Source: a virus. From it: a stretch of DNA of 57,730 nt. The translations under genes were made by a program, and so were the position numbers. Positions 8,003 to 11,337 of this stretch are shown here, piece after piece. The notes under the pieces are model-generated. The model was not told the DNA's origin, did no database searches, and worked only from the letters and a program-made list of their open reading frames with translations. Every line of letters begins with the position of its first letter. Positions within the stretch are counted from its first letter, which is position 1. The stretch spans positions 1 through 57,730 of the IMG/VR virus record IMGVR_UViG_3300045141_000380; one strand, written 5' to 3'.

Positions 8003-8404
8003 ATGGCTATCCCCACTGCGGGGTTTGGCGTCGCAACATCCGGCACGACGCCTCCCCTTACCCCCGTCGGCTCTACCGCCAACACGCTGCAATCGACCGG
8101 GTTCATCCCGGAGATATGGAGTGCAAAACTCGTCGAAAAATTTTATGCGAGTACCGTCTTGTCCGCGATATCGAATACCGATTATGAGGGCGAAATCGCG
8201 AATATGAGCGACCGGGTGAAAATCCGGACAAAACCCACGATCACGATCCGACCCTACCTTGCCGACGGTTTGCTTGGGCTTGATCGCCCGTCCGGCGGCT
8301 CGGTCGAGCTGTATATCGGGAACGGCTACTACTTCAGCCTGATCCTCGACGACGTGATGGAGGTGCAGAGCGATCTCAATCTGCTGAGCATGTGGAGTGA
8401 CGAT
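8003..8404 (+). CDS. Major capsid protein, exon 1
   Basis: 134 codons: MAIPTAGFGVATSG... FIPEIWSAKLVEKFYAS... ending LLSMWSDD. The open frame runs on to a stop at 8429-8431 but residues after WSDD do not fit the family. The last six bases (GACGAT) pair with GTCGTC at 8416-8421, placing a U-G wobble at the junction, the hallmark of a group I 5' splice site. Joined to exon 2 the protein reads WSDD-AAQQLKITVDKDVLGG, in frame. The complete three-exon product is 336 aa, a P22-like/HK97-fold coat protein in appearance, and forms the capsid shell. Confidence 0.85.
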
Positions 8405-9480
8405 AATTACGTTGTGTCGTCGGTAAACTAGGTCTAAAAAACTGGAAACCTTTATAAGGTAACCAGAGGGAAGGGATAGCAAGTTGATCTTGAGTGACAA
8501 ATACGCTGCTGGATTTCTTGATGGGGATGGTTCGATTCTTGTCGAGTCAATCAACAATGGTGCTGGAAAACGCCTTGTTTTGGCTTTCCATCAAAAAGAA
8601 TCCAATGGCGGAGTCATCGATCTTCTTGCTCAGCGGTTTTCAGGTGGACTACGGGATGACCGTTCTGGTCGCCGTCGAGGGACTGTAACTCATGCAGCTC
8701 GTCTTCGGTTTACCGGGCAAAAAGCGGTTGATCTGGTGTGCCGGTTGAAACCGTATCTCGTGGCAAAGCGTGTTCGTACTAACCGTATCCTGAGTGAGCT
8801 TGGGTTCACCGAACGGATAGGAACGGACAGCATTCCTGTTTATCCGTCTCGCAATTGGCTGGCGGGTTATTTCGATGCTGATGGTTGTGTGTATGCGCAC
8901 GCGAACAAGCGTACCGCAACTGTCAAACTGTCGATTGATTCCGATGGCCTGGAGAAGGATGGTCTCGTCCTGGTGCAGAAGGCATTTGGCGGGGTCATCC
9001 GGCAGCGAGGCGCGACAGGCAATTGCTGGCGATGGGAAGTTTCTGCGGATGCTGCGTTGGTCCGCAAGTTCTTCGATCCAATCGCGAAGCATCTGACTGT
9101 TAAACGGGAACAGGCGTATTTCATTCTGGGCTGCGCGAGGATGGGACATTTTCGCGACGGTCAGGTGATCGAAGATACGTTGAAGGCCATGAAGACCCAC
9201 CCGCACAGACTAAATGACCTGGCGGCTACTGTGGATGTATCTGCTGTACTTGCTCTAGTGCGTAATGTGCCCGATCCGCAAGGCCGATATTGGCATGCGG
9301 AAGGCGTTTTCTGCCAATGCGGAGGTAAGCCTTACGCTAAAGGCTTGTGCAAGAATTGCTGGCAGAATGAGCGCTATCATAGGCTCAAGCAGCCTACGCG
9401 CCATTATACTAGACGCAAACAGGCAGCGATCCCGGTGGTTGAAGCGATAGTCGGGACGAACGCTTAAAGGCGCTCGTTGG
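8405..9480 (+). ncRNA. Group I intron 1 in the capsid gene, carrying a LAGLIDADG gene
   Basis: 1076 bases between exon 1 and exon 2. P1 is formed by exon GACGAT and internal guide GTCGTC (8416-8421). CTGGAAACC...GGTAACCAG (about 8441-8465) makes the P4/P5 helices. Near the 3' end GAAGCGATAGTCGGG (9441-9455) looks like the S strand of P7. ACGAACGC/GCGCTCGT around TTAAAG makes a P9-like hairpin that contains the stop codon of the endonuclease. The last base, 9480, is G, as required for omega-G. The R strand is less clear; GCGCTATC near 9371 is the best candidate. Confidence 0.75.
8484..9467 (+). CDS. LAGLIDADG homing endonuclease (intron-encoded)
   Basis: 327 aa from a TTG start preceded by AGAGGGAAGGGA. 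Two LAGLIDADG motifs are visible, AAGFLDGDGSI near residue 10 and LAGYFDADGCVY near residue 126, so it is a single-chain double-motif enzyme with the two catalytic acidic residues. A zinc-finger-like CQCGGKPYAKGLCKNC lies near residue 275. It would cleave intronless capsid alleles and promote homing of intron 1; some family members also act as maturases. The last ~30 codons overlap the ribozyme core (P7-P9). Confidence 0.88.
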   Translation: MILSDKYAAGFLDGDGSILVESINNGAGKRLVLAFHQKESNGGVIDLLAQRFSGGLRDDRSGRRRGTVTHAARLRFTGQKAVDLVCRLKPYLVAKRVRTNRILSELGFTERIGTDSIPVYPSRNWLAGYFDADGCVYAHANKRTATVKLSIDSDGLEKDGLVLVQKAFGGVIRQRGATGNCWRWEVSADAALVRKFFDPIAKHLTVKREQAYFILGCARMGHFRDGQVIEDTLKAMKTHPHRLNDLAATVDVSAVLALVRNVPDPQGRYWHAEGVFCQCGGKPYAKGLCKNCWQNERYHRLKQPTRHYTRRKQAAIPVVEAIVGTNA

Positions 9481-10018
9481 GCAGCACAGCAGTTAAAGAT
9501 CACGGTCGACAAGGACGTGCTCGGTGGGATTGTTGCCAAGGCCAACGCGTTCAACATGGGCGCGACGGCGGGCAGCGTTTCCGGCAACCTGAACCTCGGC
9601 ATCAAGGGCACGCCGCTGACGCTTGTGGGGGCGACGCCCACGACCGGGCAGATAACGATCCTGGATTGTCTGCTGCGGATGGGGCAGTGCCTCGACGAGT
9701 TCAACATCCCGGAGATCGGCCGGTGGGTGGTGATGCCGTCCTGGGCCGGGCGGCAGATCAAGCAAAGCGAACTCCGGCAAGCCTATCTGTCGGGCGATCC
9801 GGTGTCGATGCTGCGCAACGGCCGGCTCGGGATGGTGGACCGGTTCACGATCTATATCTCGAACCTGCTGCCGACGTCGGTTCAGGACGCGACGCATTTT
9901 GCGGCCGGCGAATACCCGATCTTCGCAGGGCATGCTCATGCGATCACGTTCGCGTCGCAAATCAGTAAGGTCGAAACATTGCGTTCCGAGCTGACATTTG
10001 GCCAAATCCTCAGAGGGT
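9481..10018 (+). CDS. Major capsid protein, exon 2
   Basis: Begins GCAGCACAGCAG (AAQQ) right after the intron's terminal G and continues LKITVDKDVLGG ... IPEIGRWVVMPSWAGRQIK ... LRNGRLGMVDRFTIYISN ... TLRSELTFGQILRG, plus the first base of a Leu codon. There is no start codon of its own; a GTG at 9517 is internal. The unspliced frame would run to 10116 with unrelated sequence. The final GAGGGT pairs with GCTCTC at 10027-10032, with a U-G wobble, marking the second 5' splice site. Confidence 0.85.
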
Positions 10019-10328
10019 TAAAATTAGCTCTCGTTAAACTCCGTGAATTCGTCTGGGAAGCCCTGAGAGCCGAAGCGACCACAGCACAACCGGTAACGGT
10101 ATATGCGACGGTTTGAAAACATTTCGGATTGGGTAATCAGCAGCCAAGCCGCCCTGGAAGGGGTGGAAGGTTCAACGACTAGGCTGAGTAGTCCAGAACG
10201 GACGAAAAGCCCACGAGCGCGGAGCCTGCGCAAGCAGGAAGATATAGTCTGGTCTGCGGCGAAAGTCGCAGGGGGTCGGATAAAGAGCCGACCGATTGAT
10301 CTGATTGTACAGATCATGAAACACAACG
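10019..10328 (+). ncRNA. Group I intron 2 in the capsid gene (td-like, no ORF)
   Basis: 310 bases. P1 is GAGGGT (exon) with GCTCTC (10027-10032). A Q-like segment AATCAGCAGCCAAGC lies at 10135-10149. TTCAACGACTAG (10171-10182) is the R element and AAGATATAGTC (10239-10249) the S element; GACTA/TAGTC form P7. CTGCGGC-GAAA-GTCGCAG (10254-10271) is a P9 hairpin with a GNRA loop. R, S and P9 resemble the T4 td intron (group IA). The last base, 10328, is G. Splicing gives RGL-QVYGYQVL in frame. Confidence 0.88.
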
Positions 10329-10399
10329 TACAAGTGTATGGGTATCAAGTCCTAGACAACACAGCTTTGGTGCAATCGCAGGTCATTTCTGGCGGGTAA
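10329..10399 (+). CDS. Major capsid protein, exon 3
   Basis: The final 24 residues, starting with the last two bases of the split Leu codon and reading QVYGYQVLDNTALVQSQVIS then GG and stop. It completes the coat protein C-terminus; exon lengths of 402, 538 and 71 bases total 1011, a multiple of three. The surrounding open frame from 10103 includes intron sequence and is not a separate gene. Confidence 0.85.
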
Positions 10400-10400
10400 A

Positions 10401-10454
10401 TCAAGAGGTTAGTAAAATCTCTTGACTGCCAGAACATTAGGTAATATGTTCTGG
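10401..10454 (+). terminator. Two tandem perfect hairpins after the capsid stop
   Basis: TCAAGAG (10401-10407) pairs with CTCTTGA (10419-10425), and CCAGAACAT (10429-10437) pairs with ATGTTCTGG (10446-10454). The second stem has an eight-base loop and is followed by GTTTCC, not a clean T-run. Could be a terminator/attenuator for the very strongly expressed capsid message, or an mRNA-stabilising end. Confidence 0.5.
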
Positions 10455-10476
10455 GTTTCCAGTGGAGACCCAGGAC

Positions 10477-11337
10477 ATGACTTGTGGGATTTACTTTATT
10501 CGGAGTCAGAGCGGAAAGATGTACATCGGCTCCTCGATACGGGTCGAGAAGCGCTGCATGCAGCATTTCAGCAATTTGCGTAAAAACCAGCACCATTCGC
10601 GCCGCTTATCAAAGGCATTTGTGAAGTACCAAGGCAAGGGCTTTGAGTGTGGCATTCTTGAAGAATGCCTTCCTGAAGAGTTGGAAGAGCGGGAACAGTT
10701 TTGGATCGATAAACTAAAGCCTCGATATAACTCACGCATGCAAGCGGATTCAAATAGAGGCTTGCGAATGACGGAGGCGGAGCGCGCTGCTCATGTCTTC
10801 CACATGAAAAATATGATTGCAGGCAGGCCGGAATTTCGTGATCACCTCGTCAACCTGAACAAGATGAATTGGGCTGATCCTGAAAAGAAGGCTGCCCGGG
10901 TTGCCTCTTTGAAGTCTGCGTGGACCCCAAAAAAACGCGCTGAGCAGTCCGAAAAACAGAAAGGCATCGACAACGGGAAGGCAGCTCGCGACGCTCGTTG
11001 GGCCAAACCTGGGGCCGGAGAGCGGCAAAGCAAGCTGACTAACCGGATTTGGGATCGCCGCGGTCGCAAAAACACTCCGGAAGCGGTCCACACCAAGGCG
11101 AGCGAACTCGGCTGGGAGTGCAAAGAGATCGGCCCACCAAGCAAGCCGGGTGCTGTTGATGGCCGTGTCACGATTTACTGTCCCAAGCACGACTACACCG
11201 GCATGCCGACCGTTCAAAAGTTGATGTATCAAGGGCAGGGGTGCCGGTACTGTGGCTTTGAGCGCTCATCTGAGAAGCAGATCGGTCGTCCCAAGCGCTT
11301 CGGGCCCCATGGACGCGCCGTCGCGTCAGGGCTATAA
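10477..11337 (+). CDS. GIY-YIG homing endonuclease
   Basis: 286 aa from ATG 10477 (an in-frame GTG at 10462 is possible). The catalytic GIY-YIG module is at the N-terminus: CGIYFIRSQSGKMYIGSS with the two signature tyrosines, then RVEKRCMQHFSNL with the conserved Arg and EREQFWIDKLKPRYN with the conserved Glu. The middle is basic and helical with repeated KKxA-like segments (NUMOD-type DNA binding). The C-terminus has a zinc-ribbon-like YCPKHDY ... CRYCGFE. It lies just behind the twice-interrupted capsid gene and is probably a freestanding homing gene targeting that locus. Confidence 0.87.
   Translation: MTCGIYFIRSQSGKMYIGSSIRVEKRCMQHFSNLRKNQHHSRRLSKAFVKYQGKGFECGILEECLPEELEEREQFWIDKLKPRYNSRMQADSNRGLRMTEAERAAHVFHMKNMIAGRPEFRDHLVNLNKMNWADPEKKAARVASLKSAWTPKKRAEQSEKQKGIDNGKAARDARWAKPGAGERQSKLTNRIWDRRGRKNTPEAVHTKASELGWECKEIGPPSKPGAVDGRVTIYCPKHDYTGMPTVQKLMYQGQGCRYCGFERSSEKQIGRPKRFGPHGRAVASGL

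Follow-up and report, generated by a model that had tools for sequence, protein, structure and literature searches.

How can a phage with a single major capsid gene, broken into three pieces, make its coat protein, and what are the two inserts that break it? This question is raised by a 57,730-nucleotide stretch of soil phage DNA (IMG/VR record IMGVR_UViG_3300045141_000380, positions 1 to 57,730; hereafter the window), for which a preliminary description had proposed a capsid gene split by two group I introns. The exon coordinates given there proved exact (Table 1): exons of 402, 538 and 71 nt join in frame to encode 336 residues plus a stop codon. The proposed identity as a coat protein also held, as the joined product matches PHROG 267, the major head protein family, from end to end (E=3e-45), and its residues 5–332 align unbroken to the intronless capsid protein of Rhizobium phage RHph_TM29 (L001) with 64% identity. 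An alignment to coat homologues agreed with both splice junctions, which are crossed gap-free in 50 uninterrupted homologues, reading SMWSDDAAQQLKI and ILRGLQVYGY. A search of the whole record found no other capsid gene. Judged from sequence and covariation, the window's major capsid gene is interrupted by two group I introns, the removal of which restores a conserved capsid protein.

We are highly confident in an arrangement of three exons and two probably self-splicing group I introns, of which intron 1 would be mobile by means of a LAGLIDADG endonuclease and intron 2 is probably carried by a GIY-YIG endonuclease. Both introns most likely splice themselves from the mRNA, so that one 336-residue capsid protein would be made.

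Table 1. Coordinates of the capsid locus in the window, and of the micro-insertions in related loci.
Feature	Position	Strand	Basis
Capsid exon 1 (aa 1–134)	8003..8404	+	in-frame join, homologues
P1 5' strand of intron 1, GACGAT, pairing with GTCGTC 8416–8421, U.G at splice site	8399..8404	+	sequence; P1 changes with site in L009, L011
Intron 1, group I, 1076 nt, with LAGLIDADG ORF	8405..9480	+	P1/P10 guide, covarying core
P10 guide GTTGT, pairing with GCAGC at exon 2 start (9481–9485)	8411..8415	+	sequence
P3 5' strand TAGGTC, pairing with GACCTG 9216–9221	8429..8434	+	covariation
P4 (CTGG/CCAG) and P5 (CC/GG)	8442..8466	+	covariation of P4
P6 and P6a 5' strands GGGAAGGG; likely also Shine-Dalgarno of the ORF	8468..8475	+	covariation with 9196–9202
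Two-motif LAGLIDADG homing endonuclease with C-terminal zinc ribbon, 327 aa, TTG start	8484..9467	+	Pfam PF00961, PF14528; profile match to I-MsoI, I-CvuI
P6a', P6', J6/7, P7 5' strand (GACTA 9208–9212), J7/3 and P3', inside ORF	9196..9221	+	sequence, comparison
Probable P8 (GCTACTG/CGGTGGT), zinc-ribbon coding sequence in loop	9225..9439	+	hand pairing, compact P8 in L134
P7 3' strand TAGTC, inside ORF	9448..9452	+	A-U to G-C covariation
P9 hairpin, ORF stop codon in loop	9456..9478	+	sequence
Capsid exon 2	9481..10018	+	in-frame join, homologues
P1 of intron 2, GAGGGT/GCTCTC with U.G	10013..10032	+	sequence
Intron 2, ORF-less group I (IA-type), 310 nt	10019..10328	+	RF00028, folding z
Capsid exon 3 with stop codon	10329..10399	+	in-frame join, homologues
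Long hairpin burying Shine-Dalgarno and start codon of GIY-YIG ORF	10445..10480	+	z=-5.15
Free-standing GIY-YIG endonuclease behind capsid gene, possible partner of intron 2	10477..11337	+	Pfam PF01541; co-occurrence
Micro-insertions at codon 36	L017:3417-3456, L021:2252-2285, L074:2908-2942, L102:1759-1793, L112:2880-2908		
Micro-insertions at codon 42	L028:303-335, L053:2277-2309, L080:2526-2558, L134:632-661		

At both 5' splice sites we recovered the six-base guide pairings of the preliminary description (GACGAT/GTCGTC and GAGGGT/GCTCTC, each with U.G as its terminal pair), and the final base of each intron is G, as it had said, intron 1 having the sequence ...TTGG there. The Rfam search that it had suggested was positive for intron 2 and failed for intron 1, which had no group I match even at E≤10; a compact ORF-less relative likewise had none at E≤1. 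Due to this, comparative evidence in the form of covariation takes the place of a model match for intron 1, an Rfam model being a tool for detecting group I introns and not a feature that defines them. The helices P1, P10, P3–P6a, P7, P8 and P9 were first paired by hand, and for P8 and P9 this hand pairing is the basis; coding loops interrupt the core, which is without P2 and P7.1/P7.2. Relatives of the intron 1 ORF were fetched from IMG/VR, and a 16-base core motif then gave at least 119 loci. Over 21 pairs in 32 distinct cores, 100% of the cells were paired, compared with 77.8% in shuffled sets and 34–45% with slid partners, and compensatory double changes were seen in 13 of the 21 pairs (132 such cells vs 38.9 in shuffles), with P3, P4, P6, P6a and P7 as the covarying helices. 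Because pairing in P3, P4, P6 and the final pair of P7 had been among the criteria for choosing this set, the extraction was repeated on anchors alone, which gave 45 cores; in these P3 was 97% paired (69% with partners swapped between sequences) and P6a, the pairing of which was a selection criterion in neither set, was 94% paired (44% when swapped). P1 also tracks the insertion site: the introns in L009 and L011 lie six bases further on than that of the window and have new matching guides, GCTGCT/GGCAGC and GCCGCT/GGCGGC, respectively. On this comparative evidence intron 1 is a group I intron.

The ORF of intron 1, on which the preliminary description was silent, as it was on the GIY-YIG ORF behind the gene, encodes a protein with two LAGLIDADG motifs, AAGFLDGDGS and LAGYFDADGC, which have acidic catalytic residues and are conserved in A1; its zinc ribbon was assigned by eye from a CxC...CxxC spacing. 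This ORF follows the path P6a-P7-P3-P8-P7'-P9, and because it starts just past the 5' strand of P6a and ends in the loop of P9, the strand P6', both strands of P7, P3' and P8 lie inside it. The P6a loop thus codes for the nuclease and the P8 loop for the zinc ribbon, and the core strands code for a linker (HPHRLND) and the tail. We picture a compact ribozyme (~150 nt in ORF-less relatives) that would host both domains in these loops, linked by one frame running through P6', P7, P3', P8 and P7' into P9, and whose LAGLIDADG protein would cut intronless capsid genes and so bring about homing of intron 1. When codons within the ORF were tested for constraint at the RNA level, one of six pairs fell below 0.05, a trend that we rejected as evidence. 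AlphaFold modelled the endonuclease poorly (mean pLDDT 58), and its model was usable only for the order of helices and strands. A search of 85,000 bacterial and archaeal genomes identified no relatives of the endonuclease, and among phage isolates the sole relative was that of Pseudoalteromonas phage J2-1 (27% identity). In L011 the relative's endonuclease ORF does not stop at the 3' splice site but continues into capsid exon 2 (L011:2745-2821).

The same RNA also occurs without an ORF. In L134 it forms an intron of 152 nt whose P8 loop has four bases, and its flanks are nearly those of the ORF-bearing L011, at the same site, which neighbours that of the window. A second compact ORF-less copy is found in L053, where the minimum-energy fold shows P1, P3, P4, P6 and P8, P7 being a pseudoknot that the program cannot show. 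With ORF-less and ORF-bearing copies at one site, this family offers a way to study how the endonuclease is gained and lost.

Intron 2 by contrast matched the Rfam model RF00028 (55.6 bits, gathering score 50, positions 9983–10271, model positions 1–253 of 253), and it folds better than shuffled sequences (z=-4.4). Relative to the model it has a 34-nt insertion between the 5' strand of P7 and the 3' strand of P3 (P7.1/P7.2), an insertion that is usual in this place for group IA introns. Its likeness to the T4 td intron, which the preliminary description had drawn from R, S and P9 elements, stands as far as this group IA-type core with a long insertion and no further. Its DNA matches stretches of Pseudomonas, Staphylococcus and other phages, one of which is annotated Intron_gpI, and by sequence intron 2 is a standard group I intron. 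Introns of this type (297–311 nt, at codon 313) and the GIY-YIG gene are found together in three lineages, those of the window, the L002 type and the L017 type, the capsid genes of which are ~20% apart; 84 related capsid loci have neither, L020 has the GIY-YIG gene and not the intron, and 13 loci with a different intron of roughly 254 nt at codon 318 have no GIY-YIG gene. The hairpin over the start of the GIY-YIG ORF recurs in L017 and L020 with the same layout and a different sequence, and it is as in T4 homing endonucleases. The GIY-YIG gene shares its C-terminal codons (PHGRAVASGL) with a short native ORF in L012. The co-occurrence is consistent with, and no proof of, collaborative homing, in which the free-standing GIY-YIG endonuclease would probably carry the ORF-less intron 2 along.

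Endonuclease genes do split phage genes, and insert 1, being mostly ORF and without an Rfam match, could be taken for a free endonuclease gene whose arrival inactivated the capsid gene by splitting it, or turned its product into a two-chain protein. This we consider very improbable given that excision restores the frame exactly, that P1 and P10 guides and a covarying core are present, that ORF-less copies of the same RNA occur at a neighbouring site, and that the record holds only one capsid gene. Splicing of intron 1 may instead depend on its own LAGLIDADG protein acting as a maturase, or on another factor, because the core is small and twice interrupted by coding sequence; the core is also without P2 and P7.1/P7.2, and LAGLIDADG maturases are known, e.g., for the 23S intron of Thermotoga neapolitana (PMC3984707). 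We regard this dependence as rather unlikely, as ORF-less versions persist in L134 and L053, though the protein of another intron could serve them. The partnership proposed for intron 2 faces a stronger competitor, namely that this intron moves by itself or is inherited vertically and that its co-occurrence with the GIY-YIG gene reflects shared descent only. Capsid genes ~20% apart share both elements and 84 related loci have neither, which speaks for the partnership, and yet there are just three intron-2 lineages, all in one capsid family, and L020 has the gene alone; we give shared descent a substantial chance of being correct, somewhat short of even.

Returning to intron 1 as a putatively mobile group I intron, we found the endonuclease ORF in 100 of the at least 119 motif loci, and in 96 of these 100 (a non-dereplicated set) a capsid gene adjoins it. 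For the other four no capsid gene was found; the contig or fetched stretch ends nearby, at less than 500 bases in three, and the fourth, L195, shares its contig (IMGVR_UViG_3300046780_000585) with L054, which does hold a capsid gene. Thus wherever a member of this tight group could be read, it lies in a capsid gene, and some of these genes are very divergent. A distant relative, an unannotated intron of the intron 1 type, was identified in the terminase gene of the isolate J2-1 (L236:1140-2075), which takes the wider family beyond capsid genes. The annotated terminase of J2-1 starts only after most of this intron.

The preliminary description had called two introns in such a gene rare, which needs qualifying: at least one insertion of more than 90 nt was present in 33 of the 85 fetched capsid loci of this lineage (non-dereplicated), and single capsid introns have been published (PMC3706429). 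The insertion sites, placed partly by reading, include codons about 36, 44, 50, 59, 63, 73, 133–136, 313 and 318. The capsid gene of L053 (L053:2140-4860) has by our reading five insertions, i.e., a micro-insertion of 33 nt, a compact intron of ~163 nt, a LAGLIDADG intron of ~1000 nt and two ORF-less Rfam-type introns of 249 and ~260 nt. The capsid gene of these related phages is an insertion hotspot for such introns. Probing the contigs of heavily interrupted relatives with exon 2 DNA identified no second intact capsid gene. In metagenomes a fragmented capsid gene is easy to misinterpret, and annotating such introns makes several "split" capsid genes intact.

The micro-insertions, which are absent from the window, are 29–40 nt long, start after U, end in G and break the frame of the relatives' capsid genes, and when they are removed FIPEIWSxKL is restored (for L112, both the insert and its frame by visual reading). 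They have P1 guides (AUCCCU/GGGGAU or AUUUGGU/GCCAAAU) and a P10 partner, and no catalytic core. Most have a hairpin across the 3' site, L017 excepted; six fold with z of -1.2 to -3.2, and L017 no better than shuffles (+0.6). The next full intron lies 22–24 nt downstream in eight of the nine, and ~80 nt in L017 (by eye). Further copies exist beyond the nine, the sequences of which form few related groups, so that the independent cases are fewer than nine. Ribosomal bypassing was rejected after reading L102 and L053, as take-off and landing codons mismatch. We tentatively suggest, as an idea not quite as probable as its opposite, that these are core-less micro-introns that a neighbouring intron's ribozyme excises, and as such natural parasitic substrates; the main alternative is degeneration in dead genes. 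Removal in trans by a group I ribozyme, as the suggestion requires, is what spliceozymes reportedly do (PMC4094466), although those are engineered; our searches turned up no natural case.

Introns in capsid genes are not new in themselves, and Tuc2009 reportedly has one. In mycobacteriophage LittleE (Cluster J) an 819-bp group I-like intron interrupts the major capsid gene, with splicing demonstrated by RT-PCR and protein sequence, and as in the window it holds a LAGLIDADG-like frame (PMC3706429). LittleE however has one intron, its frame is on the bottom strand, and it has no described core of the intron 1 type. The T4 td intron carries the I-TevI ORF in a loop, the 3' end of that ORF supplies core nucleotides, and a hairpin holds back translation so that the intron can fold (PMC2988022). 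Overlap of endonuclease ORF and core is thus known, though the published accounts concern the 3' end of the frame or stay general (PMC2988022, PMC3984707). I-TevI is a GIY-YIG enzyme, whereas the LAGLIDADG frame of the window crosses P3', P8 and the two P7 strands before it stops in the loop of P9, so that half of the ribozyme doubles as coding sequence. The natural enzymes of solved structure that best matched the intron 1 protein in profile searches were I-MsoI and I-CvuI, whose chains of ~160–170 residues each match one half, whereas the intron 1 protein has both halves in a single chain together with a zinc ribbon. Several group I introns per gene, up to three, are found in orf142 of Twort and in polymerase and terminase genes of Bastillevirinae (PMC11878797), but these are other genes with mostly other endonuclease types, and a relative of the window has five insertions in one capsid gene. 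While capsid introns, multiple introns per phage gene and partial overlap of ORF and core were therefore already known, the capsid hotspot, an ORF threaded through two loops and a family invisible to Rfam are new; the preliminary finding was right and somewhat larger than first stated, and it defines a compact type of group I intron that the standard RNA model misses and that resides almost exclusively in phage capsid genes.
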